A stretch of DNA of 64,000 nucleotides, taken from assembly GCA_019638615.1 (NCBI GenBank), contig JAHBTL010000022.1, forward strand, positions 47,182-111,181, in the 5' to 3' direction. A program made the position numbers and the translations under genes. Origin of the DNA: Chitinophagaceae bacterium (GTDB taxonomy: Bacteria; Bacteroidota; Bacteroidia; Chitinophagales; Chitinophagaceae). A model generated the notes under the pieces. The model saw only the letters and a program-made list of their open reading frames with translations. It was not told the origin of the DNA and ran no database searches. This document shows, piece after piece, positions 7,030 to 64,000 of this stretch (position 1 is the stretch's first letter; each line of letters opens with the position of its first letter).

Positions 7030-7073
7030 TTCCTGGCAGCGTTTAAATATAAAGTTACAAATACTTTTAAATA

Positions 7074-7104
7074 GCGTTCCGAACCTTCCAAAGGTTCGGA
7101 ACGC
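7074..7104. repeat. 14-bp perfect hairpin between QW-repeat gene and TlpA-like gene
   Basis: GCGTTCCGAACCTT and its exact inverse enclose a 3-nt loop. No T-run follows on either strand, so it is not a textbook terminator, but it could attenuate or stabilise mRNA between the two minus-strand genes. Its arm GGTTCGGAACG recurs at 7125-7149 and 19077-19102. Confidence 0.8.
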
Positions 7105-7124
7105 TGCTGATATTTGTTCCGGAT

Positions 7125-7149
7125 TTCCAATCTTTAAAAGGTTCGGAAC
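7125..7149. repeat. TTCCAATCTT-GGTTCGGAAC repeat, copy 1
   Basis: The sequence TTCCAATCTT followed after a few bases by AAGGTTCGGAAC is shared with 19077-19102. Both copies lie between minus-strand genes of the same signalling block. Confidence 0.6.
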
Positions 7150-7182
7150 CCGAATCGCCATCGGCGTTAAAGGCTGCGGACA

Positions 7183-8202
7183 CTATTCCTTCTTTGCTGC
7201 CAGCAATAATGCCATCGTTGCCCAATTGCTTCCCGCGGCTGAAATAAACTGGTCGGCTTTATGCGGAAAACCACTGTCAACAAAAGGCACAAATGGAAAT
7301 GATCTTGTTTTTACATGCCATGAGCCATCGGACTGCTGGGTATGCAACAAAAAATCTATTCCTTTTTCATACGCTATATCAGTAACCTTTAAAGCCCCGC
7401 ATTTGTTCAGCGTATACAAAGCCTGCCCTGTTGCATAGGCGTCTGTTGGCAGCGAATCCAACTGGCTCCAGCCACCGTCGGCATGTTGTGCAGATAATAA
7501 TGCTTTTGCCTGCTGTGCAATATAATTTTTGTCTGCATCGCACCATGTCAGCCCTAATAGCTGAAATATTTTTTCTTCATTGGCAACAGGCTTTGTTTGT
7601 ATCATCCATTCTCTCGCTTTTGCCACACGCTGCGCTACTTCATTTTTTAAAACAGCCGGCATATATGCCTGAATATTCTTTACAGCAAGCGCTGTAACGC
7701 TGAAGGAATAATACTCAAGCGGCGGTCTTTGCCCGGGGCTGAACCAACTGCCGTTGAATGTTTGCTTGCGCATGATATTCTGCGACAAAATATCAATGAG
7801 CTTATCGCTTTTAAAATTATTTTCTTTCAATGCCCACAAATCATAACCACCCGTGATCAATACGGCAACCGGGTCGTCATTTTCCATTAATGCCTGTATT
7901 TTATCAGGCGTTTTCCATTGCCTGTAAGTACTGTCAATCGCTTCCTGTACAATGGAATCGCTTATGGCAAAACCGCTCTCCTTTGCCATAGCAAACGTTA
8001 CCAGCCCCAATCCCTGGTTATGGCATGAGTGACAATTGATCATAACCGCCGCGTTTTTTAAAAAAGCATGACTGCTGCTTTGCAGTAATGGCAGGCTCTT
8101 ATTAATAGCTGCATTAATGGCTTCAGCTCTTGTTTCATCTATTCTATTTTTGAAAGCAAGCAAAGCGGCCATGATACAAAAAAGTATAAACAGTTTCTTC
8201 AT
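7183..8202 (-). CDS. Exported CxxCH protein with squalene-cyclase-like QW repeats
   Basis: The 339-residue product starts with a short signal or membrane anchor (MKKLFILFCIMAALLAF). One c-type heme attachment motif, CHSCH, lies at residues 57-61. The rest is helical with three QW-like motifs, QTFNGSW (147-153), QHADGGW (239-245) and QQSDGSW (289-295). These are typical of the alpha/alpha-toroid of squalene-hopene cyclases and prenyltransferase-type repeats. No DxDD cyclase acid motif is seen, so cyclase activity is doubtful. I read it as a periplasmic heme-bearing toroid of unknown function. It follows the ankyrin gene by 18 bp and belongs to the operon headed by operator site 1. I recall acidobacterial proteins fusing ankyrin repeats, a similar CxxCH segment and QW repeats, which would fit the two genes acting together; this is unverified. 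Confidence 0.85.
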   Translation of the reverse strand: MKKLFILFCIMAALLAFKNRIDETRAEAINAAINKSLPLLQSSSHAFLKNAAVMINCHSCHNQGLGLVTFAMAKESGFAISDSIVQEAIDSTYRQWKTPDKIQALMENDDPVAVLITGGYDLWALKENNFKSDKLIDILSQNIMRKQTFNGSWFSPGQRPPLEYYSFSVTALAVKNIQAYMPAVLKNEVAQRVAKAREWMIQTKPVANEEKIFQLLGLTWCDADKNYIAQQAKALLSAQHADGGWSQLDSLPTDAYATGQALYTLNKCGALKVTDIAYEKGIDFLLHTQQSDGSWHVKTRSFPFVPFVDSGFPHKADQFISAAGSNWATMALLLAAKKE

Positions 8203-8220: not shown

Positions 8221-9186
8221 TTATTTTGCGCCAGCCTTTCTTAATAAATGGACGGTGGCGGTATTTCCTTTTTTTAAAGCCCATGATAGCGCAGTGCTGC
8301 CGTTATCGGAAACAGCATTTATATGGGCGCCTTTATCTAAGAAAGCCCGGATGATCCCGGGATTATCATATTCGCTATATACCGCCCACATCAACGGCGT
8401 CATGCCCGCTCTCGTTTTTTTTGTATTGATGTTTTTTGTTTTGGGCAAAATAACCTTTACGGCTTCCATATTGCCTGCCGCAGCAGCCCATGCTGCCGGA
8501 AGATAATTTTGCTCATCCGTAATATTTACATCGGCCCCGTGGTTCACCAGGCAGGGAACAGCGTTCCAGTTACCCATTCTTACCGCATACATTAATGGCG
8601 TAAATCCCCACGGGTGGGCGTTTATGTCGAGCCCTTTGCCGAGCAAAAGCTTAATAGTCATCGTATCGCTGAATTGTGCGGCGCGCATTAACGCTGTTTC
8701 CGCATTCCATCTTTTGGCGTTCACGTCAGCGCCGTTATCTATCAGCCATTTCACTGTTTCGTACATGCCATATCCGGAACAGGCGATCAATAAAGCGCTA
8801 TTGCCCGATTTTGCCGTATCGTTGATGTTTGCTCCATACCGGAGCAGCAATTTCATTTTGTCGAGATCATTGGTGCAAAGCATGAGCGCCGTTTGCCCGT
8901 ATTTGTTTTTAAGGTTTGGATCGGCTTTGTTTTCCAGCAGTAACTGCATGCAGTTTGCCGACGCGTATATAGCCGCATTGATTAATACATGATCACTGTC
9001 ATCATCATACGCATTTACATCCGCACCGGTTTGTATAGATTTTAATATTGCACCGGCGTCGTTATTTTTTACTGCCTCAATCAAAGCTGCTGATTGTGCC
9101 TGCACGTATTGCACAGCCGGCAGCCAGTGAGCGATAATGGAAAGGAACAGGATTTTATACGTGTGCATAAAAATGTTTTGTAACAT
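8221..9186 (-). CDS. Exported ankyrin-repeat protein
   Basis: The 321-residue protein has a signal peptide (hydrophobic ILFLSIIAHWLPAVQYVQAQ) and about nine ankyrin repeats covering residues 32-321. The consensus signs GADVNA, G.TALM.A and LL..GA recur every 32-36 residues. It should form an extended periplasmic binding surface. The start at 9186 is supported by the preceding peptide gene, whose TAA overlaps this ATG by one base (TAATG). An in-frame ATG at 9168 would give a tidier signal peptide and is the alternative. The next gene is 18 bp downstream and encodes the CxxCH/QW protein. No enzyme domain is present; a binding or chaperone role toward its neighbour is inference. Confidence 0.92.
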   Translation of the reverse strand: MLQNIFMHTYKILFLSIIAHWLPAVQYVQAQSAALIEAVKNNDAGAILKSIQTGADVNAYDDDSDHVLINAAIYASANCMQLLLENKADPNLKNKYGQTALMLCTNDLDKMKLLLRYGANINDTAKSGNSALLIACSGYGMYETVKWLIDNGADVNAKRWNAETALMRAAQFSDTMTIKLLLGKGLDINAHPWGFTPLMYAVRMGNWNAVPCLVNHGADVNITDEQNYLPAAWAAAAGNMEAVKVILPKTKNINTKKTRAGMTPLMWAVYSEYDNPGIIRAFLDKGAHINAVSDNGSTALSWALKKGNTATVHLLRKAGAK

Positions 9187-9329
9187 TAATAATGGCTGAC
9201 ACCTGCCGGTAAATGCAGGATGAAATCAATCATTTGCTGAAAAAGGCTGAATAAAATAAGAAAGACGCCGATAAAAAGAGTGGCAATACCTGCTACTCCT
9301 GCTGCTTCGAGTGTTTTAGTTGAGTTCAT
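9186..9329 (-). CDS. 47-residue single-span membrane peptide
   Basis: A 47-codon frame runs from ATG at 9329 to TAA at 9186-9188. The peptide begins MNSTKTLEAAG, has one hydrophobic segment (VAGIATLFIGVFLILFSLF, about residues 12-30) and a short tail ending SHY. It is real by context: it is the first gene after operator site 1, its stop overlaps the ankyrin start, and its -7-like promoter element lies 22 bp upstream. It resembles the very small membrane subunits or assembly factors that sit at the head of some respiratory operons, but I recognise no family. Confidence 0.7.
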   Translation of the reverse strand: MNSTKTLEAAGVAGIATLFIGVFLILFSLFQQMIDFILHLPAGVSHY

Positions 9330-9350: not shown

Positions 9351-9399
9351 TAAAAATAGTTTGTGTTGCTGCGGAGGGCAATCACCTGAACGGGTGATT
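9351..9399 (-). promoter_or_regulatory. Operator site 1 and promoter of the ankyrin/CxxCH operon
   Basis: The palindrome AATCACC-N6-GGTGATT lies at 9380-9399 with both 7-bp arms perfect. Exactly 21 nt downstream on the minus strand is TATTTTTA (9351-9358), close to the Bacteroidota -7 consensus TAnnTTTG. The palindrome would be centred near -42, the position of a class II activator. The first start codon, 9329, follows after about 21 nt. Confidence 0.82.
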
Positions 9400-9653
9400 T
9401 TGATGATGATCAGGAAATGATAGTAGCAGATGTGCTTTAAATAAATTTTGAAAAGGGGAAGCTAAAATTCAGGTGTGCAGATAAAAGATAATAGTGCATT
9501 CAATGTCGTTTCCTTAGTTGCAGGTGTCTGTAATAAGCAATGGAACACTGAACACAGTTCATTTCGAGTAATTTATTAGGCGAACCCAAATCAATGATGC
9601 GATGACGTGCAATTAACAATAATCGTACATAGCGGCAAGTCAGGAGATTGCTT

Positions 9654-9881
9654 CCACAAGTGTTCGAAACCTGAAATTTACTCAAGAGGTGCAGCGCACC
9701 TTAATCTTTGTAGCTGATTATCATGAACGTTTTTTTAGCCGCAGAGCGGCGAAATATTTTTTACCCACTAAAATGATATTCCGGTGCGCTGCACCTTGCA
9801 TCCACGGAATCAATTGTCTACAAATATACCGCCGCGCTGCGGCTGAAAGCGGTTATTGTGAAAGGTTTCGAACACTTGTGG
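9654..9881. mobile_element. 228-bp MITE-like element with 19-bp TIRs and 7-bp target duplication
   Basis: Perfect 19-bp terminal inverted repeats, CCACAAGTGTTCGAAACCT at 9654-9672 and its inverse at 9863-9881, bound the element. Both ends are flanked by the same 7 bases, ATTGCTT (9647-9653 and 9882-9888). The insertion lies in the GATTGCTTC portion of a separate repeat family. Inside are four small GC-rich hairpins (near 9690, 9740, 9790 and 9830). No transposase frame fits in it, so it is non-autonomous and would need a transposase elsewhere in the genome. Confidence 0.85.
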
Positions 9882-10076
9882 ATTGCTTCTTCCGCCAAAA
9901 CATTCACTCAATTCAAATGATCATGCGGGCGGGATCGCAAGGACGGCAAGAGATTGAGTAATTGCATACTTTGCCTTAGTATTGGTTGTAAAGCCAAAGC
10001 CCTCTCGTTCGTCATTGCGATCCCGCCAGCATCGAAACTTTAGCTAAAACAAAGTTTTGGCGGGAGAAGCAATCTC
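9882..10076. repeat. ATTGCGATCCCGCC/GATTGCTTC inverted-repeat elements, two copies
   Basis: The first copy (about 9882-9950, broken on its left by the 228-bp insertion) runs from GATTGCTTCTTCCGCC to GGCGGGATCGCAA. The second copy at 10011-10076 runs from GTCATTGCGATCCCGCC to GGCGGGAGAAGCAATCTC. The second is 66 nt long and differs from 13987-14052 at only two positions. Each unit folds into an imperfect hairpin downstream of the cytochrome gene. Confidence 0.85.
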
Positions 10077-10094
10077 TGAACTTACGTGCATTTA

Positions 10095-11420
10095 TTATTT
10101 TATTTTCTTAAAAACCTCTCCGTAATCGGTTGCTTCTTTTAATGCCGTTATATTTCCTGCTGCATCGCTGATAAAATTAACAGGCAGCGGCCAGCCTGGT
10201 GTTAGAAAATAAGTTGCTGTTTGCGGTATCAATTCAATTTTTGGTGCATTTTCCGCCTGTTGCCCCATTAATTTTTTTCCCTGTTTTGTGATGATATAAG
10301 TTGCATTGTATTTTTCGTTGAAATAGACACCAACATATTTATCATATAAATTATCACTAACCTTTATGCCGTGTGGTTTTGGAATTATATTTTTATCACC
10401 ATTGCCATGTTTCTGCCCGCATAGTATGCAATACGTAAATGGTTGCTGATTCGTAATATAATGTTGAGCCTTTGGCAGTGTGGTCAGATAGGCGTAAATA
10501 GCCCGCAGGTCAGCATCATTCAGATTTTTAAAACTATTCCACGGCATCACAGGACTAAGCGTATTGCCCTTGCCTGTTCGTATCACAAAAAAAAATGCCT
10601 GCAATCCATAATTAATACCGGAAGCATCTGTAGTAATATTTGCACTAAATGCCTGATGCCCGGATATGTTGATATTATATCCGCCGGCAAAAAGCCCGGG
10701 GCTGTATTCGCCGCTGTAACTATGGCAGCCCATGCAATCACCGATTCGTACCAGGTAGCTGCCGCGTTGTATTGAGTCTGACAAATCAGGAGCAATAACT
10801 TTTTCCGTAACCGGGCTATATGATTTTTCAAGCCATGATTTTTCATCTGCAGATAATTTGGTGGCAGCTACTTTATTATACACTGCCGGCAACGAGCGCA
10901 GGTAAACAATAACTGCGGCAAGGTCTTCATCTGACAAATACCTGAAATTATAATAAGGCATTTTCGTGCTTAATGCTCTTCCATCGTGACCAATACCTTC
11001 ACGTATGGCACGAACAAGCATATCATCTGTCCACATACCGGCGCCGGTTTCCTTATCAGGTGTAATGTTTGGCGCTATTATTTTTGTAGTGCTGTCTTCA
11101 AATAAAATATCGCCGCCGCTTCCTTCCTTCCCTGCAACCGGCGGCGCACCCGCAGCATTCCAATTGAGCGGAGAATGGCAGGTAAGACAATGGAGTATTC
11201 CATTAACCAAATATTCACCACGGGATAGTCGCTCCGGAGTGCTCGTAAACGTAATGTTGGTAAGTGGCCGTGCTTTAAAACTATCTTGTGAGTTATTGGT
11301 AAATGAACCGGTATTATCAATAGTTTTCTCTGCTGAATTTTGGCATGACGGTGAATATATTATCACTATAATTACAGCAATAATTAGTAAGAACGTTGTT
11401 ATGATTTTTTTATTAGTCAT
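10095..11420 (-). CDS. Diheme cytochrome c lipoprotein with extra C-terminal domain
   Basis: The 441-residue product has an N-terminal hydrophobic segment ending in SPSC (C26), a plausible lipoprotein site. Two cytochrome c modules follow. Module 1 has CLTCH at 78-82 and a likely methionine ligand in MPYYNF (M154). Module 2 has CMGCH at 229-233 and MPWNSF (M292). At 331-335 there is CILCG, a third pair of cysteines lacking the heme histidine. Residues about 355-441 (KYVGVYFNEKYNATYIITK onward) resemble the small beta domain DUF3471, an unusual partner for cytochromes. It is the last gene of a three-gene operon headed by operator site 2, 10 bp after the previous gene. It probably transfers electrons in the periplasm; donor and acceptor are unknown. 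Confidence 0.9.
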   Translation of the reverse strand: MTNKKIITTFLLIIAVIIVIIYSPSCQNSAEKTIDNTGSFTNNSQDSFKARPLTNITFTSTPERLSRGEYLVNGILHCLTCHSPLNWNAAGAPPVAGKEGSGGDILFEDSTTKIIAPNITPDKETGAGMWTDDMLVRAIREGIGHDGRALSTKMPYYNFRYLSDEDLAAVIVYLRSLPAVYNKVAATKLSADEKSWLEKSYSPVTEKVIAPDLSDSIQRGSYLVRIGDCMGCHSYSGEYSPGLFAGGYNINISGHQAFSANITTDASGINYGLQAFFFVIRTGKGNTLSPVMPWNSFKNLNDADLRAIYAYLTTLPKAQHYITNQQPFTYCILCGQKHGNGDKNIIPKPHGIKVSDNLYDKYVGVYFNEKYNATYIITKQGKKLMGQQAENAPKIELIPQTATYFLTPGWPLPVNFISDAAGNITALKEATDYGEVFKKIK

Positions 11421-11430
11421 CTTGTCAAAT

Positions 11431-11961
11431 TCATTCTGCTTTAGTAAGTTTCATCTCAAGAAAAACCGCGCCTTCTTTTCCATTAATTTCCGGGCGCGAC
11501 TGGATAAGCCAGGTGTTCATATCGGGTTGCCATATCAGCCGTTGTACAACACTGGTATCACTGCTGAATTTTGCCACAGTTTTAAACTCGTTGCCGCTTC
11601 GGTAGCCATAAAAAAATCCTTCAGATAAATCTGCATCACCTTCAATGCTCATGCCATGAATAGTGTAGCGTTGTTTGTTGCGGTTGTATCCGATGTATTG
11701 ATAATACTCCATTTCCACACCCCACCACGGAATTACTTCATTGCTTTTTAAATGGATGAGCAAATATTGATGATTTAATATCCAGCGTGCATCCATTTCT
11801 GAAGTAAACCTGCTGCCATGTGCAACAGCAGTAACGTGCCAGTTGCCAACAAGATGATCAAGCAGATCATCATGAAATCTTCCGTCAGTAGTGTCTTTTG
11901 TTTGTGTAAAAACTGTTGTTACAACAAATATTTTTACCAATAAAAGCAATAGTTTTTTCAT
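11431..11961 (-). CDS. Secreted DUF1579-like protein (regulon copy 1)
   Basis: The 176-residue product has a signal peptide (MKKLLLLLVKIFVVTTVFTQ) and a single beta-rich domain of the DUF1579/lipocalin-like type. Its marks are DDLLDHLVGNW at about 30-40, WILNHQYLLIH, YIGYNRNKQRY and a final block LIWQPDMNTW. It is clearly related to the protein at 14276-14824, which shares DDLLDH, WILNHQ and WQP. The family is thought to bind small hydrophobic ligands but no function is established. It sits between another DUF1579-like gene (16 bp upstream) and the cytochrome gene (10 bp downstream), so all three are one operon. Confidence 0.85.
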   Translation of the reverse strand: MKKLLLLLVKIFVVTTVFTQTKDTTDGRFHDDLLDHLVGNWHVTAVAHGSRFTSEMDARWILNHQYLLIHLKSNEVIPWWGVEMEYYQYIGYNRNKQRYTIHGMSIEGDADLSEGFFYGYRSGNEFKTVAKFSSDTSVVQRLIWQPDMNTWLIQSRPEINGKEGAVFLEMKLTKAE

Positions 11962-11977
11962 ATTGCATCGTTTATCA

Positions 11978-12616
11978 TTATTTCGCTTTCACTCTTGTGA
12001 AATATATCTCTGTATCTTTAATGTATCTTCCATTTTTTTCAGAATAATAGTTCCACTGGTAATGATCTTTATCATTAAAAATAAAATCAAAACGAGCATT
12101 GGTTTTTACATCCGGCGTATCTTCAAACACAGCATAAAACACAATGGTTCTGGCAGCAGCGTCATATGTGCCCTGCCAAAAAGTTATATCGCTGCCGATA
12201 TGACTATTGATATAGCTGAATTGAAATTTTTCGCTTACATTATTATACCCTTCCAACTGAATTGCTTTTGCATGATCATTAATCATTTTCCCGTTTCGCA
12301 CAGGTAAGGCTATTTTCGCCGCTGTGGTTAGTTCTGTAATAAAAAAACGTCCGTAAGCAAAAGGTTTTCTTGTAAGGCTTCCGGCTAATTTTACACTCTC
12401 TTTACTTGTAACGGAATCAACCCATTCCAGGTGGCTGCCTTTGAAAGTCCAGTTGCCTGTAAGTTCTTCAAGCATATAGTGATACCTGCCGGGTCTTGAA
12501 TAATCGAGCATTTGCTGAAAAGTGTTGTCCTTATTAGCCGATGAATCTTTACTGTTTTGGGCGAATGCAGCGGTTGCAATAAGTATTGTTACCAGGGCAA
12601 TCAGCAGGCGGTTCAT
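11978..12616 (-). CDS. Secreted DUF1579-family protein (regulon copy 2)
   Basis: The 212-residue protein begins with a signal peptide (MNRLLIALVTILIATAAFAQ). The mature part matches DUF1579: LEELTGNWTFKG at about 49-60, PFAYGRFFITE, GYNNVSEKF, and WQGTYD. It is more distant from the copies at 11431 and 14276 than those two are from each other. It is the first gene of the operon driven by the promoter at operator site 2, with a leader of only about ten bases. The following gene starts 16 bp after its stop. A periplasmic ligand-binding role alongside the cytochrome is inference. Confidence 0.88.
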   Translation of the reverse strand: MNRLLIALVTILIATAAFAQNSKDSSANKDNTFQQMLDYSRPGRYHYMLEELTGNWTFKGSHLEWVDSVTSKESVKLAGSLTRKPFAYGRFFITELTTAAKIALPVRNGKMINDHAKAIQLEGYNNVSEKFQFSYINSHIGSDITFWQGTYDAAARTIVFYAVFEDTPDVKTNARFDFIFNDKDHYQWNYYSEKNGRYIKDTEIYFTRVKAK

Positions 12617-12631
12617 GTATAAAATTTTCAG

Positions 12632-12680
12632 TAAAATTACCTGCTACGCGAACGAAGAACAATCACCCAAACTCGTGATT
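12632..12680 (-). promoter_or_regulatory. Operator site 2 and promoter of the DUF1579/cytochrome operon
   Basis: AATCACC-N6-CGTGATT lies at 12661-12680, with one mismatch in the second arm. TAATTTTA, a -7-like element, lies at 12632-12639, again exactly 21 nt downstream on the minus strand. The start codon of the DUF1579-family gene is at 12616. Confidence 0.8.
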
Positions 12681-12689
12681 TTTATACCA

Positions 12690-13415
12690 TCAGGGTAATA
12701 AGTCCCAGATCAATATCAAAAAAATGTGAACGCTTACAATACAGGCGCTGCCTGTCAAAGTGATTTTATGGATACTTTTTATTGTAAGCAGATCATAAAT
12801 AAAAATGGGGATCAACAGCAAATCATTATAAACAAACCATGCAGAGGGAATAGGGTTGTTCAATAAAGACAGTTTTGCCATTGCAGGTATCCATTCCAGT
12901 GTTGCATTAACACCTGCGTAGATTAAAACACGGTTAAAACCGGCAGATATTAAAACCAGTGTTGCAAGTAAAAGCAGGCGCTTATGCGCTGCCGCATTTT
13001 TCCTGGCAACTATGCCCCAGGTAAAAAATAACCCGAACAGGCATATAGTTAAGAAAAGAAAAATAACACTGTCCCACGAGATATCGGTATGAAAAGGATA
13101 ACCTATATGCGCATTAAAAGTTACGATACCCATTGATATCCATGCGAGTATGCCCAGTCCTACAGAAAGCAAACCAATCCGCCTGTGCAATTTCAGGTTT
13201 CTTTTAGCTGCAAGCATGGCTTGTATAAGAAAAACCAATAACCACGCTGTTAATAAGGCGCCATGTACATGAACAAACCAGGGCAGCGTTATATGTTGCG
13301 CATTGATAGCCCGGTAATCTTCTCCAAAACCTATCACAGATACACTGATAAAGAAGACAGCCATCATTATGAAAAAATAGCGTGCATAGAATGATTGTTT
13401 TATTGCTGCTTTCAA
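12690..13415 (-). CDS. Seven-span membrane protein with conserved histidines
   Basis: The 241-residue protein has about seven transmembrane helices. The region WFVHVHGALLTAWLLVFLIQ (about 46-65) followed by RNLKLHRRIGLL is typical of a widespread family of polytopic bacterial membrane proteins near DUF2306. The paired histidines suggest heme or quinone contact, but this is unproven. The start codon here is TTG at 13415, placed just behind the promoter of operator site 3; no ATG precedes residue 17. Starting at ATG 13367 would cut into the first helix, so I prefer TTG. It is a single-gene unit of the regulon. Confidence 0.83.
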   Translation of the reverse strand: MKAAIKQSFYARYFFIMMAVFFISVSVIGFGEDYRAINAQHITLPWFVHVHGALLTAWLLVFLIQAMLAAKRNLKLHRRIGLLSVGLGILAWISMGIVTFNAHIGYPFHTDISWDSVIFLFLTICLFGLFFTWGIVARKNAAAHKRLLLLATLVLISAGFNRVLIYAGVNATLEWIPAMAKLSLLNNPIPSAWFVYNDLLLIPIFIYDLLTIKSIHKITLTGSACIVSVHIFLILIWDLLP

Positions 13416-13432
13416 AATTTTATTTTATAATG

Positions 13433-13481
13433 CAAAATTCCGCTTTGATGGGGTCGCAGTCAATCACCCGGACAGGTGATT
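13433..13481 (-). promoter_or_regulatory. Operator site 3 and promoter of the seven-span protein gene
   Basis: AATCACC-N6-GGTGATT lies at 13462-13481 with perfect arms. GAATTTTG at 13433-13440 follows after exactly 21 nt and matches the TTTG half of the -7 consensus. Confidence 0.82.
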
Positions 13482-13673
13482 TATGTATGGTATGAGTAAT
13501 TGAAGAACGTTTGCTGCAGAAGAGCGTAACCTGCCTGTTGGCTATGCACGCGCTGCCAGGATATTATCTGCACTAAAGCCCGGGGATTTCACTTTTAGCA
13601 AAAAGGTCTAAAAGGTGATAATATCATTCTTTAAAGACATCAGGAAAGCGAAATTTTTTAATACCCTCCTGCC

Positions 13674-14052
13674 GTCATGGCGATCCCGCCTGTATCGGAA
13701 TCTTAATTGAAGCAAAAGCCTGGCGGGGGAAGCCATCTCCGTTTTTGAATCCATGAGAGATGGCTTCATCTGCCGCAAGATGCTTATAATTCAATCTTCA
13801 TGAGGCGGGCTGCCAATGACGTATTGTCTAAATAGTTAACTACCAGCGCTATCAGGAGATTGCTTCTCCCGCCGCAATATGCGTTTAATTCAAACAACCT
13901 CCGGGCGGGATCGCAATGACGCTAAAATTGTTTTGGGTTTATAACCGGTACCAAAGCAAAGTATACATTCACTCAACCTCTCGCCCGTCATTGCGATCCC
14001 GCCAGCATCGAAACTTTAGTTAAAGCAAAGTTTTGGCGGGAGAAGCAATCTC
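13674..14052. repeat. Array of four ATTGCGATCCCGCC-type hairpin repeats
   Basis: Copies lie at 13674-13739, about 13755-13820 (inverted), 13856-13920 (inverted) and 13987-14052. Each pairs GTCATTGCGATCCCGCC-like and GGCGGGAGAAGCAATCTC-like arms across a 25-35 nt spacer. The first two are more diverged (GCCATCTC for GCAATCTC). The last is nearly identical to 10011-10076. The rest of the 13482-14275 gap holds no visible gene. Confidence 0.85.
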
Positions 14053-14081
14053 TACTGTTAATTCCACGTCATTTTGTTGCC

Positions 14082-14127
14082 GTTGTTGGTGTTGAGTGCG
14101 GATTTGCGTTCTGGCCTCACCAACAAC
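14082..14127. repeat. GTTGTTGGTG palindromic element, copy d
   Basis: Perfect 10-bp arms lie at 14082-14091 and 14118-14127 around a 26-nt spacer beginning TTGAGTGCGG. It is related to copy c in inverted orientation and lies downstream of the DUF1579-like gene at 14276. Confidence 0.8.
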
Positions 14128-14168
14128 AATTTAGTACTTAAATTTTATAATAGCACATATAAATCCCG

Positions 14169-14240
14169 GTTGTTGGTGTTTGCCTACGCATTTTGCCCAA
14201 CCGCGAACACACAACAACGGCGCTTGAGAACACCAACAAC
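14169..14240. repeat. GTTGTTGGTG palindromic element, copy e
   Basis: Arms GTTGTTGGTG (14169-14178) and CACCAACAAC (14231-14240) enclose a longer 52-nt spacer. The spacer contains an extra ACAACAACGGCG, so this copy may be two overlapping units. Confidence 0.72.
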
Positions 14241-14275
14241 TCTGATAAACCACATTGGCGTAGCCACATCCCGGG

Positions 14276-14824
14276 TTACTCCTTTTGCCTTTCAATTTTT
14301 AAATCCAGGTAGGGCGCTTCCTCTTTGCCGTTATTCATATTTTTTGCAACAAAATGCCACGACTTTGTTTGCGGTTGCCATGTAAAACTTTCAACGTCAA
14401 AGCTGCCGGTAGACGGGTCAGCAAACCGGCTCACAAATTTTATTTCATTGCCATTACGCGTGCCGAATAAAAGATAGCCGAGCTGGTTACCTGCACCAAA
14501 CACATTCAGCAAATGTGCCGCATAACGTTTATTGCCGTGGTCGTAACCAATAAACAATAACGATTCATACTTCATGTGCAGCCAGGGCACAGTATCGTTT
14601 CCTGTTTCATGAACCTGGAAAAACTGGTGGTTCAATATCCACTTTCCTTCAAAGTGTATATTTTTAAATTTCTGCTCATGCACCGTTCCGGAAGCCGTCC
14701 ACATACCTGCAAAATGATCGAGCAAATCATCATAAAAACGATGATCTGTAGTATCATCCGTGATTTGAGAAAATGAGGGAACCGAAATGATACCTGCAAA
14801 AAATAAAAAACAAAATTGTTTCAT
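14276..14824 (-). CDS. Secreted DUF1579-like protein (regulon copy 3)
   Basis: The 182-residue product has a signal peptide (MKQFCFLFFAGIISVPSFSQ) and one DUF1579-like beta domain. The shared blocks DDLLDHFAGMW, WILNHQFFQVH, LFIGYDHGNKRY and FTWQPQTKSW mark it as a paralogue of 11431-11961. It starts one base after the stop codon of the response regulator gene, so regulator and DUF1579-like protein are co-transcribed and probably translationally coupled. This placement ties the DUF1579-like proteins to the signal pathway itself; acting as a ligand-binding accessory is an inference. Confidence 0.87.
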   Translation of the reverse strand: MKQFCFLFFAGIISVPSFSQITDDTTDHRFYDDLLDHFAGMWTASGTVHEQKFKNIHFEGKWILNHQFFQVHETGNDTVPWLHMKYESLLFIGYDHGNKRYAAHLLNVFGAGNQLGYLLFGTRNGNEIKFVSRFADPSTGSFDVESFTWQPQTKSWHFVAKNMNNGKEEAPYLDLKIERQKE

Positions 14825-14825
14825 A

Positions 14826-15464
14826 CTATACTAATTTTTGCTGTATTGCTTTTGCAACGGCCTCACTTTTGGAATGCACGTGCAGTTTTTCGTAAATATG
14901 CCTTACATGTGTTTTAACGGTGTCTATAGACAGGAAGCAGGATTCTGCAATACCCTGGTACGATTTACCTTTTACCAGCCAGCCCAGGATCTCTTTTTCA
15001 CGGTCTGACAAGTCAATAAATTCATTTTTTGTTGTTGCTGACTGATGCCTGAACATTTCCAATACTTTTGCGGCAATAGAAGGCGCCATGGGCGCGCCGC
15101 CATTGTATGTTTCGTGAATGGCTTCAATCATTTTTTGCGGGGATGTTTTCTTGAGCATATAACCGGAGGCTCCTGCACAAAGCGCTGCAAAAATCTTATC
15201 ATTCTCCTCAAATACAGTCTGCATAAGAATTTGAACGTTGGGGAATTTTTCTTTGATGATCTGCACGGCCTCAATACCCGAAGTGCCGGGCATGTTTATG
15301 TCCATCAGCACCACATCAGGATCGGCAGCCTGCATGCTGCGCAAAATTTTATTCGCATCCGCAAAAGCACCGGTGCAATACATATCTTCGCGGCTGTTTA
15401 CAAGCTGTGCTAAGCTTTCGCGCAATACTTTATTGTCTTCGAATATGGCAACTTTTATTTCCAT
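14826..15464 (-). CDS. NarL/LuxR-family response regulator
   Basis: The 212-residue protein has a receiver domain (1-120) with E9-D10, phospho-acceptor D55 in LMDINMP, and K105. A LuxR-type helix-turn-helix follows (about 150-207, LSDREKEILGWLVKGKSYQGIAESCFLS...TVKTHVRHIYEKL). It is the natural partner of the two HisKA_3 kinases encoded immediately upstream. LuxR-type regulators bind as dimers to short palindromes, so I propose it binds AATCACC-N6-GGTGATT at the five sites in 9.4-19.1 kb, including one in front of its own gene (autoregulation). The -7 element at site 4 ends three bases before the ATG, so a transcript from it would be almost leaderless. Confidence 0.95.
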   Translation of the reverse strand: MEIKVAIFEDNKVLRESLAQLVNSREDMYCTGAFADANKILRSMQAADPDVVLMDINMPGTSGIEAVQIIKEKFPNVQILMQTVFEENDKIFAALCAGASGYMLKKTSPQKMIEAIHETYNGGAPMAPSIAAKVLEMFRHQSATTKNEFIDLSDREKEILGWLVKGKSYQGIAESCFLSIDTVKTHVRHIYEKLHVHSKSEAVAKAIQQKLV

Positions 15465-15467
15465 ATT

Positions 15468-15516
15468 TAAAATAACTGAATTAATTATTCATATCGCATC
15501 ACCCGTTTAAGTGATT
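15468..15516 (-). promoter_or_regulatory. Operator site 4 and promoter of the response regulator gene
   Basis: CATCACC-N6-AGTGATT lies at 15497-15516, with one changed base at the end of each arm, and overlaps the stop codon of the upstream kinase gene. TTATTTTA at 15468-15475 follows after exactly 21 nt. It would give the regulator its own promoter within the kinase-regulator cluster. Confidence 0.75.
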
Positions 15517-17255
15517 TTGAATGTAAGCGCTGCTTTTGTTCCATTGTTTATTTCCGAGCTGATCGCATACGCCGCATTTAATTCTTCCGCCCTTCTTTTT
15601 AAGCTGCTCATGCCATTGCCGTTATAGCTTTCTCCTGTTTTAAAACCTTTGCCGTCATCCGTAATATTCATTTCTATATTACTTTCTTTCCTGCTAACGG
15701 TTACCGTTATCTTTTTTGCACCGGAATGTTTTGCCGCATTGTTGATGGCTTCTTTAAAAAACAGGTAAATATTTTTACGCTGCTTCATGGTAAGTTTTAT
15801 ATTATGTAAAGCGGCATCGCTATTAAAGGTAAGTTGTATGTTTTTTGCTTCCGTTATTTCAGTAGCAAACAAATACATGCGTTGCAGCAGGTTTTCAAAA
15901 TGGTCGTTATGGGGGTTTACCGTCCAAACAATATCGCTCATGTTTTCCTGTATGGCTGCCGTGCTTTCGCCAATAGAAGTGAGCAGTTGCAATGCTTCCG
16001 GCGATTTTGCCTTTGCCAGCTCATTCATAATACTGATGCTGCTGAGCGTTGAACCAATATCATCATGCAAATCGTCGGCAATGCTGTTGCGGATATTTTG
16101 CAGTTGCTTTATTCTCCTGTTTCTAATGATCATAAATGCTGCCAGCGAACCAACGATAAACACTACCAGTAACAGGTATAAACGATAACGATTTTGCACA
16201 CTGGAAGTAGCCAGTTCAACTGCATGTTCGTTTTCATTTTTCTTCAGCAGTATATTTTGAAAAGCCATCATCTTTTGATGACTATGCAGGCTGTCTTTTA
16301 TTTTTATTGACAGGTGCAGGTATTTTAAAGCGCTGTCAGCAGAATGACTTTCTTCATATATAGCAGCAATAATTTCAGCAGCCTGTTGTTTGCCTGCGGG
16401 AAATGTAGTAAGGTTTGTATCAGCCAGTATTTTTTTTGAATACATTAAAGCAGAATCAGGTTGATGTTGTTTTTTGAACACACCTGCCATCCCATTGCAG
16501 GCATCAATCCAGTTATACTTCATGTTGGTCCACTCACTAGGAGGAATGCTCATTCGATAATATTTCAACGCTGAGTCATTCATATCATTAATTGCATAAG
16601 CATCTGCCAGCGTTACGTAAACACCACTTTGAGACCATTTCATTTCCCAGTCATTAGAAGAATAATAACTGCTTGTTTTGAAAAGAGCGTACCCTTTTTG
16701 TGCATAAAACAATGCAGAGTCATATTGTTTTAACCCGATAAATACCGGTGACAACATGCTATACATACGATGCAATTCGGGCAGTTTATTCTCAATGCCT
16801 ATTTGCAATACTTTTTTATAGTAAGGCATTGCGGCTGCAAATTCACCAAGGTTAGCGTAACTATCACCAACAGCGCCACTGGAAAAACCCGTTGCATAAA
16901 TGCTGTTCATTCTTTTGGCAAGAGGGATCAATTTAAGAGCGTTCTCCAGTTCCTGGCTATAATTTCCCATAGAATACAATGCGGCATTTATACTAATTAT
17001 CGAAAATAATCTGCCGTTATCAAAGTTTAATTTTTCTGAAAGGTCATGAGCCTGCCGGCCATATTGCAAAGCAGTATCAGGGTATGCAAACGCATAGAAG
17101 TTGCAAAGGGTAATTAATGTCCATACTTTATTGGTATCTTCCTTTTGATATAATGCGGCATTTTTCACTGAATCAACCCATTGCTCTTGTGCTTGTGCAA
17201 TAACAGCTATTAAGCAACAAATGACAGCCACGATATGCACAAAACATTTTTTCAT
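15507..17255 (-). CDS. TPR sensor histidine kinase A (HisKA_3 type)
   Basis: The 582-residue protein has a signal peptide, a periplasmic TPR-like helical sensor region (about 30-340, with repeated DSALxYxxxS motifs), one transmembrane helix (about 352-374) and a cytoplasmic kinase. The HisKA_3 box is DDLHDDIGSTLSSIS with the phospho-histidine at about 396. The ATPase shows NAAKHSG and DDGKGF. This architecture pairs with LuxR-type regulators, here encoded next. Its kinase core is nearly identical to kinase B down to DNA level, while the TPR region is clearly diverged. The start ATG overlaps the stop of kinase B (TAATG). Confidence 0.95.
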   Translation of the reverse strand: MKKCFVHIVAVICCLIAVIAQAQEQWVDSVKNAALYQKEDTNKVWTLITLCNFYAFAYPDTALQYGRQAHDLSEKLNFDNGRLFSIISINAALYSMGNYSQELENALKLIPLAKRMNSIYATGFSSGAVGDSYANLGEFAAAMPYYKKVLQIGIENKLPELHRMYSMLSPVFIGLKQYDSALFYAQKGYALFKTSSYYSSNDWEMKWSQSGVYVTLADAYAINDMNDSALKYYRMSIPPSEWTNMKYNWIDACNGMAGVFKKQHQPDSALMYSKKILADTNLTTFPAGKQQAAEIIAAIYEESHSADSALKYLHLSIKIKDSLHSHQKMMAFQNILLKKNENEHAVELATSSVQNRYRLYLLLVVFIVGSLAAFMIIRNRRIKQLQNIRNSIADDLHDDIGSTLSSISIMNELAKAKSPEALQLLTSIGESTAAIQENMSDIVWTVNPHNDHFENLLQRMYLFATEITEAKNIQLTFNSDAALHNIKLTMKQRKNIYLFFKEAINNAAKHSGAKKITVTVSRKESNIEMNITDDGKGFKTGESYNGNGMSSLKRRAEELNAAYAISSEINNGTKAALTFKIT

Positions 17256-19006
17256 TATACCGGTTTAAATCTTAACTGTATTGTGGTACCCTGGTTGGTT
17301 AATGATGCGATGTTATACACCGAATTCAGTTCTTCCGCTCTCCTTTTTAAGCTGCTCATGCCATTACCGTTGTAACTTTCTCCTGTTTTAAAACCTTTGC
17401 CGTCATCCGTAATATTCATTTCTATATTACTTTCTTTCCTGCTAACGGTTACCATTATCTTTTTTGCGCCGGAATGTTTTGCCGCATTGTTGATGGCTTC
17501 TTTAAAAAACAGGTAAATATTTTTACGCTGCTTCATGGTAAGCTTTATATTATGTAAAGCGGCATCGCTATTAAAGGTAAGCTGTATGTTTTTTGCTTCC
17601 GTTATTTCAGTAGCAAACAAATACATGCGTTGCAGCAGGTTTTCAAAATGGTCGTTACGGGGGTTTACCGTCCAAACAATATCGCTCATGTTTTCCTGTA
17701 TGGCCGCTGTGCTTTCGCCAATGGAAGTGAGCAGTTGCAATGCTTCCGGCGATCTTTCTTTTGCCAGCTCATTCATAATACTGATGCTGCTGAGCGTTGA
17801 ACCAATATCATCATGCAAATCGTCGGCAATGCTGTTGCGGATATTTTGCAGTTGCTTTATTCTCCTGTTTCGTATAGTGGTAATAGCAATAATAGAAAAT
17901 GTAATAAACAAGGTGATCAAAAAATATAACCGGTACCTGTTTTTTAATGCAGTTGTGTCGGCTTCTATTGCTCTTTGATTCTCCTGGTCTTTCAATAAAG
18001 CATTTTGAAATGCAAATGTTTTTTCACGGCTGTAAACACTGTCTTTTACATTTTGTGCAATGCGCAGATATTTTAAACTGCTGTCGGCTGTTTTTTGCGC
18101 TTCATATACGTCTGCCAAAAGGTCTGCTGCTTTTAACCTGCCGGCGGGATAAGCCCGGGTAAATTTATCTGCCAATACTTTTTTTGCATACCATATTGCA
18201 GAGTCTTGCTGACGTTGTTCCTGAAATATATGCGCTATCCCGTTATACGCATCCACAACACCCACCTCTATGTCTGTTTCAAGGCTTAAAGCAATGCTTT
18301 CACGATAGTAGTATAAGGCTGAGTCATATAGATTATTAACCTCAAAAGCTTCTCCTAAAACTAAATATACAAGGCCTTTTGCCACCTTGCCATCGTTGCC
18401 ATTGCTATTATATAAAGCGGGCTGCGCTTTCAGGAGTTGCAGGCCTCTGCGTGCAAAAAGAATGGCCGAGTCGTACTGGTGCAAGCCAATATAAAGGGGC
18501 ACTATTGCAGCGCAGCCGGAATACAATTCGTCCGGAAAATGCTCCGCTATATTTTTCATTACTATACTTGTATATTTTTTAGCTGAATTGTAGTCGCCGA
18601 GATTAATATAACTGTCTGCCATCATTCCGTTGCTCCAGCCATAAGAATACAGGTCATTTAATCTTTTAGCGATAGGCAAAGCTTTGAAAGCAAGGTTCAG
18701 TTGTTCGGTATAATTACCGGTAACATGCAATCCGTTATGTAATGATTGTATTGACCAAAACATACCGCTGTCATACTTCAGTTTTTCAGCTATCGCTAAA
18801 GCTTTTCTTGCGTACATAATGCAGGAGTCAGGATCGTTGTATACGTAATAATCTGCAATGTTTCTTAGCGTCCAGACTTTATTGGTATCTTCTTTTTGTG
18901 TAAGTGCGGCTTTTTTTAATGAATCAACCCAGGCGTTTTGGGTGTACGCCCACGAGGAACACATACTACAAACAATGAGTAATAATATCGTTTTACTGCT
19001 TCCCAT
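17255..19006 (-). CDS. TPR sensor histidine kinase B (HisKA_3 type)
   Basis: The 583-residue protein has the same layout as kinase A: signal peptide, TPR-like periplasmic domain, transmembrane helix (about 355-375), HisKA_3 box with the histidine near residue 397, and an HATPase domain with NAAKHSG and DDGKGF. From IRNRRIKQLQ to RRAEELN (about 183 residues) I count about four differences from kinase A. The last 25 residues and the sensor differ strongly. It is the first gene of the operon behind operator site 5. Two sensors sharing one kinase core suggests two inputs feeding the same regulator. Confidence 0.95.
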   Translation of the reverse strand: MGSSKTILLLIVCSMCSSWAYTQNAWVDSLKKAALTQKEDTNKVWTLRNIADYYVYNDPDSCIMYARKALAIAEKLKYDSGMFWSIQSLHNGLHVTGNYTEQLNLAFKALPIAKRLNDLYSYGWSNGMMADSYINLGDYNSAKKYTSIVMKNIAEHFPDELYSGCAAIVPLYIGLHQYDSAILFARRGLQLLKAQPALYNSNGNDGKVAKGLVYLVLGEAFEVNNLYDSALYYYRESIALSLETDIEVGVVDAYNGIAHIFQEQRQQDSAIWYAKKVLADKFTRAYPAGRLKAADLLADVYEAQKTADSSLKYLRIAQNVKDSVYSREKTFAFQNALLKDQENQRAIEADTTALKNRYRLYFLITLFITFSIIAITTIRNRRIKQLQNIRNSIADDLHDDIGSTLSSISIMNELAKERSPEALQLLTSIGESTAAIQENMSDIVWTVNPRNDHFENLLQRMYLFATEITEAKNIQLTFNSDAALHNIKLTMKQRKNIYLFFKEAINNAAKHSGAKKIMVTVSRKESNIEMNITDDGKGFKTGESYNGNGMSSLKRRAEELNSVYNIASLTNQGTTIQLRFKPV

Positions 19007-19013
19007 AAATGGG

Positions 19014-19062
19014 TAAAGAAAGTTATTTCAGGCATCAAATGCAATCACCCTTTTGGGTGATT
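19014..19062 (-). promoter_or_regulatory. Operator site 5 and promoter of the kinase operon
   Basis: AATCACC-N6-GGTGATT lies at 19043-19062 with perfect arms. TTTCTTTA at 19014-19021 follows after exactly 21 nt. The kinase B start codon at 19006 lies seven bases beyond the -7 element, so the leader is very short. Confidence 0.8.
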
Positions 19063-19076
19063 TGTAGTAAAAAGGT

Positions 19077-19102
19077 TTCCAATCTTCCGAAGGTTCGGAA
19101 CG
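19077..19102. repeat. TTCCAATCTT-GGTTCGGAAC repeat, copy 2
   Basis: It shares TTCCAATCTT and AAGGTTCGGAACG with 7125-7149 and one arm of the hairpin at 7074-7104. It lies between the hybrid regulator stop and operator site 5. Confidence 0.55.
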
Positions 19103-19113
19103 CTTACCAGCAT

Positions 19114-22100
19114 TTATGTATGCTCAGTCTTCCATTCCTGCGGCGTTACGCCATACTCCTGTTTAAATACCCTTGCGAAATAACCGGGATCATTATAGCC
19201 GCAGTCCAACGCTACTGATGCTATACTATTGGACGGATCCAGTAATAATTCTTTTGCTTTTTTAAGCCGGATCATACGGATGAATTTGTTGGGAGAACAC
19301 CCGGTGAGCGCTTCCAGCTTGCGATGCAGTTGCGAATGACTCATAAAGACCAGCCTGCATAATTTCTCAACGGTAAAATCTGCATCCGTCAGGTTTTGCT
19401 CCACTGCTTCTCTTACCCTTTTTACAAAACTGTTTTCAATAGTATGGTCGTCTTTTTTATCATGGATCACAACCGGTTGTGTGGGTACATCGCCCTGTAT
19501 ACCAGCCTTTTTAAGATAATATTGCTGCAGGTTTTTACGCATTTCCAGTAATTTATTTACCCGCACCAGCAGCTCTTCTTTATTGAACGGTTTTTCCAGG
19601 TAGGCATCCGCGCCCTGCTGTAACCCTTCTATCTTACTGCTTATATCGGCTTTGGCGGTGAGCATAATAACAGGGATATGGCTGGTGTTTTCATTGCGAC
19701 GTAATTTGTTCACCAGTTCAAACCCATCCACAAAAGGCATCATTACATCGGTAATGATCAAATCAGGAACAATATCTGTAGCAATGTCAAAACCTTCCCT
19801 GCCATCTTTGCCTACTGCAAGCCTGTAATCAGAAAGACAGGATGCGGTATAGGCTACCACATCCGCATTGTCTTCTACCAATAATATCAATGGCACACCG
19901 ATGCTTTTTTCGTCCTTACCCGGCATCCATTCGCTGAGATCCGGCTTTGCAATAACAGGAGAGGAAATTTGTTTTTTAATATCAGGCAGTGCTGGTCTCT
20001 CTGTTGCCGTTACCTTTTTCAGTGGAAGCGATACCGTAAACTCACTGCCCTTAAAAGCGCCGGCCGGCGGGCTTTTTACCATGATCTCTCCATCCATTAA
20101 TTTAACCAGCTCTTTTGTGAGCGCTAAACCGATACCTGTGCCTTCCGTTTTCCGGGTATGACTGTTATCTAATTGATAAAACCTGTCGAAAACATATTGC
20201 AACTGATCTTCGGGTATGCCTATGCCGGTATCTTTTACTTTAATGATTAAAGTAATATTATCAGTGTTACCGGAGGGTATGGTTTCCGATACACTGATAT
20301 AAATATTTCCTTTTTCAGGTGTGAATTTGATGGCATTGGAAAGCAGGTTGGATATGATCTGTCTTAATTTCTCCCTGTCAAATTCCAGGTGCAGCGTGTC
20401 AATATCCGTTAAAAAGTGTAACTGTTTTTGCTGGCTTTCTGCTAGTGAATGAAAGGATTCAACGATATACCGCAGAAAATGGATAACATCTCCGGGCGAT
20501 AACTGCAACTGCATTTTACCCGTCTCCAGCCTGGAAAGATCAAGCAGTTGATTCACGAGGTTCAGCAGGTTTTGTCCGTTGCGCACGATCATATCCATGC
20601 GGGTATCAAATTGCTCTGAAGGTTTTTCTGTAACCTGCTGCGCGATGCCCAGTATAACGGTAAGGGGCGTACGAAATTCGTGGGTAATATTGGTATACAA
20701 TTGTGTTTTAACAGCGTCTAATTCTTTTGCCCTTTTAGCTTCTAACTGCTCATAGTTGAGCTGCGATTGCAGCTTTGCCTTGTTTACTTTAAACCGGAGG
20801 TACACTCTTATAGCCAAAGCTATCAGCAACGCGTATAGCATATATGCCCACCAGGTTCGCCACCAGGGAGGTAATACGCTGATCTTCAGCTCGGCGGTTT
20901 TATCACTCCATATACCCTGGCTGTTGCTGCCCTGCACTTTAAAAGTATAATCACCTGGCGGCAGGTGGAGGTACGTTACGGTGCGCCGTGTGCCGCTCTC
21001 TACCCATTCCTTATCAATGCCGGCCAGCTGATAGCGGTATTTGTTTTGTGCGGGCGCTGTAAAGTCAAGCGAAGAAAATTCGAGAGTGAGCACATCCTGC
21101 AAATGACGGAGTGTTATGGATGCTGTTTGCTCAATCGTTTTCTTCAGCACGCCTGTTTCATCACCGGGGGTTACCGCTTTATTACCAATTTGTATGGCAG
21201 TAATATATATGTTGGGCGAATAACTGCCGGACAATACTTTTTGCGGGTTAAAAATGTTGATGCCGTTCACTCCTCCAAATGCAAGATCGCCATTGGATAA
21301 TTTCGCCAGCGCATTGGTATTGAATTCATCGGACTGCAGCCCATCACTCGTGCTGAACACCCGGAATTCCGGTGGCGAATCGTTTTCTTCTTTCGCCGCC
21401 GTCATGCAGAATATTCCACGGTTAGTGCTTCCCCATATATTACCGGCTTTATCAGCTAATATTCCATACACCACATCATTGGGCAACCCCTGTTGGGTAG
21501 TGTAATGAATAAATTTCCCGGTTGATTTTTGCATACGGTTGAGCCCTCCGCCTTTGGTACATATCCATAGGAAATCATTATCAGCAGGATCATCCATAAA
21601 CCAGGAAACATAATTATAGCTCAGGGAATTACTGTTACCGGGAATATTTTTAAACCATTTTACTTTAGGTGAGGATGTATCGTTCGCAAATGCCAGTCTT
21701 GCAAAACCATGTTCAGTGCCCAGCCAGAAACTACCCTGTCCATCCTCGTACAATGCATTGGTTTGTGTAAGCGCCGTTGTGCCCGTATATTGCTCAATAT
21801 CTATTACAAATTTTGAAAGGTTGCCGGTGGCAGGGTCAACCCTTGCCAGCGTGCCATTGGCGCCGCAAACCCATATACGATTCCTGCTGTCTTCGATAAA
21901 TGGCTGCAGTTGCTCAGTAGGGGTTGTGTTTACCGGTTCGTCATACACGGCCGTTAATTTCATGCCGGCCGTATGCCGGAACATTTTCTTTTTCCCACAC
22001 CAATAAAGCCAATAGTCGCCGTTTTTTGCCCGCACCACATTCGTAAAAGCAAGTCCATCGTTGATAACAGGCTCAACCGGGTTGACGCGTTCTTCTCCTT

Positions 22101-63769: not shown

Positions 63770-63891
63770 CGGTACTCACGGGCAGATTTGAGAAACGCTT
63801 CATCTAAATTCTTACAGGCGCTGATTAAAAAGGTTGCTGAACATTGCGTTTCCAAGCAAAGGTCGGGTTCGCAGTGAAAAAGATTATGGTC

Positions 63892-64000
63892 ATTGCGACC
63901 CCGACCTTCGGTTGGGGGAAGCAATCTCAACGATTGAATTTAGGTTGGGACTGCTTCTCCCGCGCCAACATACTTTAATTTAATACAATCCTATCGCGGA
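63892..64000. repeat. ATTGCGA-type repeat copies at the right edge
   Basis: GTCATTGCGACCCCGACC and GGGGGAAGCAATCTC (about 63890-63930) form one diverged unit, and GGGACTGCTTCTCCCGC begins a second, cut by the window end. They belong to the family at 10011-10076 and 13674-14052. The rest of 63770-64000 shows no gene. Confidence 0.7.

Follow-up and report, generated by a model that had tools for sequence, protein, structure and literature searches.

Five inverted repeats of the form AATCACC-N6-GGTGATT, found in a stretch of 64,000 nucleotides from a Chitinophagaceae bacterium (the window), are probably the operators of a response regulator encoded among them at 14826-15464; once phosphorylated, this regulator would act from a class II-like position to activate its own gene and neighbouring operons. 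The first-pass annotation had proposed such a regulon; its claim holds, and the system appears to be one case of a wider design. The sites, their register, the recurrence of this register across the family and the co-variation of operators with regulators are observed directly in the sequence. The operators and their -7-like octamers are as follows.

Operator 1, 19043..19062, minus strand: exact; before the kinase operon; octamer TTTCTTTA at 19014-19021
Operator 2, 15497..15516, minus strand: one change per arm; kinase-regulator junction; octamer TTATTTTA at 15468-15475
Operator 3, 13462..13481, minus strand: exact; before the gene of a 241-aa protein; octamer GAATTTTG at 13433-13440
Operator 4, 12661..12680, minus strand: one mismatch; before the DUF1579/cytochrome unit; octamer TAATTTTA at 12632-12639
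Operator 5, 9380..9399, minus strand: exact; before the peptide/ankyrin unit; octamer TATTTTTA at 9351-9358

All five positions given in the first-pass annotation are confirmed: sites 9380, 13462 and 19043 are exact, 12661 has one mismatch and 15497 has two, one in each arm. Every site lies upstream of a minus-strand unit, and at all five a minus-strand octamer starts exactly 21 nt past the operator, also as described earlier. Of the six fixed positions of TAnnTTTG, the Bacteroidota sigma-A promoter element that the octamers resemble, TATTTTTA, TAATTTTA and GAATTTTG match five, and TTATTTTA and TTTCTTTA match four. The earlier judgement that identical spacings are unlikely by chance agrees with the probability of a summed octamer score of at least 23 at one fixed spacing (p ~1.7e-7, uncorrected for ~30 possible spacings), which was drawn from octamer scores at 31,336 upstream positions within stretches fetched from the organism's own genome. 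At up to three mismatches, the operator pattern matches 8 times in the window versus 2.97 expected from shuffles, and eight matches were reached in 1 of 100 shuffles.

The operators head units encoding two kinases (19043), the response regulator (15497), a 241-aa protein (13462), a DUF1579-type protein with a cytochrome c (12661), and a 47-aa peptide with ankyrin genes (9380). The genes of the cluster, with homologues in the related cluster of another genus (assembly G074), are listed below.

19114-23232: AraC-type hybrid sensor; gene ends just upstream of operator 1
17255..19006, minus strand: kinase 1, 583 aa; TPR region, HisKA_3, HATPase_c
15507..17255, minus strand: kinase 2, 582 aa; TPR region, HisKA_3, HATPase_c
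14826..15464, minus strand: NarL/LuxR-type response regulator, 212 aa; Response_reg and GerE; putative binding protein
14276..14824, minus strand: secreted lipocalin-like protein of the regulator unit; no Pfam match
12690..13415, minus strand: 241-aa protein; membrane protein by hydrophobic sequence; no family match above cut-off
11978..12616, minus strand: DUF1579 protein (Pfam)
11431..11961, minus strand: DUF1579-like protein, below cut-off; 70% homologue in the G074 cluster
10095..11420, minus strand: cytochrome c protein; two Cytochrome_CBB3 stretches
9186..9329, minus strand: 47-codon peptide with a hydrophobic stretch; stop overlaps the ankyrin start (TAATG)
8221..9186, minus strand: ankyrin-repeat protein
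7183..8202, minus strand: second gene after the ankyrin gene; weak squalene-hopene-cyclase-type match; 57% homologue in the G074 cluster

The regulator has the architecture that defines NarL/FixJ (LuxR-type) proteins, namely a receiver (Response_reg, 85.5 bits; cut-off 30.2) followed by a C-terminal GerE helix-turn-helix (66.7 bits; cut-off 23.5), and HisKA_3 kinases adjoin its gene. The autoinducer-binding N-terminal domain of quorum-sensing LuxR proper was not found in it, the Pfam search giving receiver and GerE only. Identity with the NCBIfam equivalogs NarL (135 bits; cut-off 250) or MctR (139.4 bits; cut-off 300) was rejected, as was that of kinase 1 with FimS (41.3 bits; model cut-off 600). 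The two kinase genes share 573 identical positions over their final 630 nt, and the pair therefore probably arose by recent duplication or conversion. The lipocalin-like protein at 14276..14824 matches the G074 homologue of 11431-11961 at 40% identity.

In the organism's own genome (7.18 Mb; its contigs carry C-numbers, genome assemblies G-numbers), the operator pattern occurs nine times with at most one mismatch, versus once for the reversed-pattern control, and 23 versus 14 times with at most two. All three exact sites of the genome are inside the window, and the nine near-perfect sites are divided among the window (4), a cluster on C11 (3), C13 (1) and C49 (1). Eight of the nine have a NarL-type response-regulator gene within ~10 kb and lie in promoters, that on C13 before a kinase-regulator operon; the ninth (C49) is inside a 294-aa reading frame. 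The first-pass annotation had named equal frequency in coding regions as evidence against its claim; only this one site of nine lies inside a reading frame away from a regulator. With up to two mismatches, 11 of the 23 sites are within ~10 kb of a NarL-type regulator gene; an octamer scoring at least 4 stands at 21 nt in the direction of the gene at 9 of these 11, versus none of the other 12 in either orientation. Chance was taken as the explanation for C49:19003 and for the twelve two-mismatch sites that lie away from regulator genes or lack an octamer; C36:23971 is doubtful (octamer 3/6), and so is a tie of C13:8030 to the window regulator, given that the C13 regulator shares only 29% identity with it. 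At E <=0.001, the window regulator has 52 matches in its own genome, some of them receiver-only.

A combined search for operator and octamer gave 16 matches in the same genome versus 5 for the reversed pattern. Matches with at most two combined mismatches are confined to C15, C11 and C13, with three-mismatch places on C3, C4 and C24. No distant target with at most two combined mismatches was found outside the C15, C11 and C13 loci, and the window regulon therefore looks local to the regulator locus. The earlier label of a cytochrome/ankyrin regulon fits the window; it does not extend beyond it, as no cytochrome was found in the 19.9-kb stretch of the G074 cluster and the genes controlled in the C11 cluster are different ones.

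A separate NarL-type regulator, 47% identical to that of the window, is encoded in the C11 cluster, which matches the window in layout: four sites (one with two mismatches) point in the same direction, an octamer with a score of 4 stands exactly 21 nt from three of them, and one lies between kinase and regulator, as 15497 does. A C11-type system is also present in another assembly of the same genus (G010), where all three sites, one of them at the kinase-regulator junction, have TAACTTGC at 21 nt; G009 retains one site of this set. In G007, a promoter homologous to that of operator 1 precedes a gene for a kinase that shares 77% identity with kinase 1, and its operator is exact, followed by TTTCTTTA at 21 nt; the contig ends there, and no close relative of the window regulator was found in this assembly (best 45%). 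The octamer scored 4 at 21 nt in these three assemblies (G007, G009 and G010) among the 14 loci inspected in a genus-wide scan with the window motif. Matches of that scan with one mismatch outside G000 are mostly chance; the other inspected loci lacked the octamer. A family-wide kinase search, in which up to 9 candidates per genome were scored, gave relatives at E <=1e-100 in at least 2 of 147 genomes, one being the organism's own.

The cluster in G074, from another genus of the same family, encodes a regulator 79% identical to that of the window and a single kinase 54% and 65% identical to the two window kinases. One operator stands before the kinase (one mismatch, TACCTTTA at 21 nt), another over the kinase stop codon (two mismatches, TTTCTTTA at 21 nt), and there is a weaker third site; overlap of an operator with the kinase stop, as at operator 2 (stop 15507-15509), is common to C11, G010 and G074. 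The match to the operator is weak at window site 15497, at C11:99349 and at the third G074 site. Ankyrin genes (57-60% identical) and lipocalin-like genes are also shared with the window. It could be argued that another protein binds the dyads, such as a global regulator or the AraC-type hybrid sensor, whose gene ends next to operator 1. We regard this as very improbable, because few sites lie away from regulator genes, the hybrid sensor has no match at E <=1e-4 in the 19.9-kb G074 stretch although the operators are retained there, and the motifs predicted for such sensors, in the accessible text of the relevant paper, are direct repeats and not dyads (PMC3878776).

The arrangement of dyad and octamer recurs with other operator sequences. 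A paralogue in the same genome (C1:375669, 42% identical) has AATACTG-N6-CAGTATT twice, in divergent orientation, each with a good octamer at 21 nt. When dyad gap was scanned against spacing in 233 upstream regions from 97 loci, the peak fell on dyads centred 31 nt ahead of the octamer, so that gaps of 2, 4, 6 and 8 pair with spacings of 23, 22, 21 and 20. With a score of at least 12, 32 matches in the 233 regulator-operon upstream regions were at 31 nt, versus 2-12 at other distances from 24 to 40. Control regions of the same loci also rose at 31 nt (43 of 965, versus 10-23 at 24-39 and 15 at 40), which is expected if some of them are targets. Among 161 distinct regulators (proteins >170 aa kept from 183 loci), the 160 nt upstream gave 56 matches with a score of at least 11 at 31 nt and 31 at 30 nt, versus a mean of 11.9 over 24-29 and 33-39 nt.

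Related regulators are not independent, and they were clustered at 70% identity. In an independent test with 50 clusters from named genomes outside Verrucomicrobia, 15 had a score of at least 12 at 31 nt and 5 at 30 nt, versus a mean of 1.05 and a maximum of 4 at other spacings from 14 to 59. The 47 clusters from the same genome, genus and family, with the discovery loci removed, gave 5 at 30 nt and 1 at 31 nt (mean 0.33 elsewhere), and 10 and 6, respectively, with a score of at least 11 (mean 2.09). The register is therefore 30-31 nt and not always 31. The 14 Verrucomicrobia-labelled clusters gave 1 at 31 nt. No excess at 31 nt was found for OmpR-type regulators (n=30; 3, mean 2.7) or LytTR-type regulators (n=30; 0, mean 1.15), and with a score of 12 the OmpR controls gave 3 of 30 at 30 nt.

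For many related regulators such a site was not found, and several of the closest (50-59% identical) are among them: in ten stretches from G038, G073, G014, G105, G068, G048, G033 and G065, no repeated dyad was found at the register. By eye, some junctions of these regulators carry degenerate look-alikes of the dyad. In six of 27 other loci of at least 9 kb, the junction operator recurs once more (no more than 2 of 16 arm positions mismatched, octamer at 31 nt), directly after the regulator gene in five. The window, with five copies, is the richest of the 28 loci scanned; a sixth match on the other strand has four mismatches and is probably chance. As intergenic inverted repeats in a region where dispersed repeats occur nearby, the dyads might be taken for terminators, RNA structures or dispersed repeats rather than operators. 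This is barely credible, as the arms are constant while spacers and flanks vary, a promoter octamer stands on one side at one spacing, and the arms differ by regulator at one register.

The view that these dyads are operators of the adjacent regulators is consistent with the relation between arms and recognition helices. We compared 49 junctions, comprising 48 sites with a score of at least 11 centred 40-80 nt before the start codon, plus the window junction site added by hand; the set includes the C13 regulator (L058), whose site is probably chance. Operator similarity correlated with identity of the recognition helix (Mantel r 0.42; 0 of 2,000 permutations), of the whole DNA-binding domain (0.38) and of the receiver (0.34). 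The helix given the receiver retained 0.28 (0 of 2,000), versus 0.18 for the DNA-binding domain given the receiver (20 of 2,000) and 0.13 for the receiver given the helix (37 of 2,000). Dyads at the wrong distances of 27, 33, 35 and 37 nt gave r of 0.24, 0.07, -0.02 and 0.02 with the helix, and at most 0.08 once the receiver was removed, the 27-nt control falling to 0.08. Operator arms thus vary between regulators and follow the recognition helix more than the receiver domain.

When the start of the helix has an aspartate, the arm is GTGATT in 12 of 17 regulators, versus 2 of 32 otherwise (Fisher p 4.7e-6, relatedness ignored). The helix motif is S-I-D-T-V in the window regulator and S-M-D-T-V in the C11 regulator, and this pairing explains why a regulator only 47% identical has a near-identical operator; cross-talk between the two systems is possible. 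The earlier proposal that the LuxR-type regulator is the binding protein is well supported by correlation: eight of the nine near-perfect sites are close to NarL-type genes, the other-genus cluster with the 79% identical regulator retains both autoregulatory operators, and differing recognition helices go with differing arms at the same register. The autoregulated loop that had been suggested is likewise favoured by the operators that immediately precede the regulator gene and the kinase operon.

A class II activator site is centred near -41.5, overlaps or abuts the -35/-33 element and keeps a fixed register. The dyads have this geometry, their centre being 31 nt (in some cases 30) before the -7 box and the repeat overlapping or abutting -35/-33. 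In the accessible text of a Flavobacterium psychrophilum promoter study, the -7 box was mapped at -12 to -5 (PMC9723704). Transferred from that species, this mapping puts the dyad centre at about -43.5; the class II position claimed in the first-pass annotation is thus supported by the fixed register, with the centre displaced from the -42 given there. Of 48 junction promoters (one of the 49 was lost to a length filter), 20 have TTG at -35 to -33, versus at most 1 at neighbouring offsets and 2 with the mirror triplet on the far side; four of the five window sites have TTG there as well. The promoter-proximal (right) arm thus often runs into the -33 element.

An arm lying over the -33 TTG, as in these 20 of 48 promoters, is in the usual position of a repressor, and the regulator might repress from the same sites, with the dyad covering the -33 element and blocking RNA polymerase in negative feedback. 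This is improbable, though less so than the other alternatives: the register is fixed even where arms differ, and repressors need no such register; matches without TTG still peak at 31 nt (34, versus 22 at 30 nt and 6-16 at 26-29 and 32-36 nt); and the window octamers are off consensus, as might be expected of activator-dependent promoters. The persistence of the 31-nt peak without TTG speaks for contact of the dyad-bound regulator with RNA polymerase and not simply for overlap. In C11 and G010, the octamers TAACTTGC and TAGCTTGC conform to TAnnTTGY, the F. psychrophilum motif SM5, which differs from the sigma-A consensus in the accessible text of the same study (PMC9723704); a different sigma factor may therefore act in the C11 system.

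At operator 2 of the window, the dyad centre coincides with the end of the kinase 2 stop codon (15507-15509). Of the 49 junctions with a dyad, 43 have an upstream frame of at least 150 codons, and the same position (stop beginning at operator position 8) was found in 14 of these 43, versus at most 3 for any other offset; by their differing arms, judged by eye, these 14 form about five groups. In 92 clustered junctions taken without selection for a dyad, the dyad score, compared over 101 offsets, reached its maximum precisely at the stop end (mean 2.90 versus 2.41, sd 0.18), where 9 junctions had at least 6 of 9 dyad matches versus 1.87 per offset. The -7 score of these junctions was highest at +31 (2.20), except for the stop codon itself (-3, 2.96), followed by -9 (2.13) and -8 (2.11), with a mean of 1.67. 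Nothing special was found at the stop-end offset in 35 OmpR/LytTR junctions (2.54; 1 with at least 6 matches). The peak at the stop end indicates that the last two codons of the kinase often write the left arm; kinase 2 ends Ile-Thr-stop. Tentatively, and with somewhat less than even confidence, we suggest that a single portable module of ~60 nt comprises the kinase 3' end, the operator and the promoter of the regulator gene: the final codons encode the left arm, the stop ends exactly at the dyad centre, the right arm also serves as the -33 element, and the distance from there to the -7 box is fixed. Operator copies before neighbouring genes would make self-contained regulons, and operator and helix would co-evolve under the coding constraint of the kinase C-terminus.

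For the window system, we infer phosphorylation, binding, activation and its positive sign. One or both TPR-containing kinases would phosphorylate the regulator, a dimer of which would bind the 20-bp dyad, its promoter-proximal arm usually running into the -33 TTG. Fixed ~43 nt upstream of the start, the bound regulator would contact sigma/RNA polymerase (class II activation), raising its own gene and the kinase operon in positive feedback, as well as three neighbours: the membrane protein, DUF1579/cytochrome and peptide/ankyrin units. With other operator sequences, the module may serve many NarL-type regulators of Bacteroidota, the operator at kinase-regulator junctions often being built around the kinase stop codon.

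Several known systems share parts of this design. Like the window regulator, ComA of B. subtilis and NarL combine a receiver with GerE and use inverted-repeat operators, with a site beside the upstream element of the promoter. According to the accessible text on ComA, a 6-4-6 inverted repeat is combined with a direct repeat at the class II place, where an inverted repeat works poorly (PMC4797271). In contrast, the window-type inverted repeat itself occupies the class II place, in many regulators and with the Bacteroidota -7 box. FimS/FimR of Porphyromonas gingivalis, from the same phylum, resembles the window system in having a kinase with a TPR region, and FimR is a NarL-type regulator. It was reported to act on the mfa1 promoter, and the accessible text names no palindrome, inverted repeat or binding site (PMC1974823). 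The hybrid two-component systems of Bacteroides also have local regulons around the regulator gene; unlike the window system, they are one fused protein with an AraC-type domain, for which the accessible text gives predicted direct-repeat motifs (PMC3878776). The F. psychrophilum promoter paper names no regulator dyad, palindromes and response regulators being absent from its accessible main text (PMC9723704). In the literature searched, mostly papers available without subscription, no shared operator rule was found for Bacteroidota NarL-type regulators.

These genomes encode many two-component regulators of the NarL type. Should the rule hold, some of their binding sites and local targets could be read directly from the kinase-regulator junction, the pairing of helix residues with arm bases would provide a testable recognition code, and the modules would supply parts for regulated promoters in Bacteroidota. 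It would also be a case of a regulatory site evolving in the context of a stop codon.

The two kinases of the window lie in tandem (15507-19006), and their kinase-coding ends are nearly identical (573/630 nt), whereas their sensor halves are divergent. In G074, a member of another genus of the family, there is a single kinase instead of the tandem pair. Downstream of the ankyrin genes lies a further gene:

6106-7161, thioredoxin/redoxin-type protein

This gene is perhaps part of one unit with the ankyrin genes.

Short repeated hairpins of the AACCTTCnnAAGGTT type occur in the window at 19074-19102, 7075-7103, and 7129-7150 (5 matches versus 0 in 100 shuffles). Similar hairpins are present in the C11 cluster, the second system of this genome, on the far side of three operators (L016:8248, 14726, and 17350). 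Intergenic DNA of the window also carries a dispersed repeat around GTCATTGCGATCCCGCC, at 9928-10027, 13674-13690, 13904-14003, and 63889-63905 (6 matches, with 0.03 expected); it is possibly a MITE- or REP-like element. By eye, CAACAAC-type words were also seen to recur in both orientations between genes at 14080-14270.

The octamers TAACTTGC/TAGCTTGC, found at two loci on contig C11 (L016 and L114) and at L117 in G010, a genus member with a C11-type system, resemble TAnnTTGY, which PMC9723704 describes as an alternative promoter box in F. psychrophilum.
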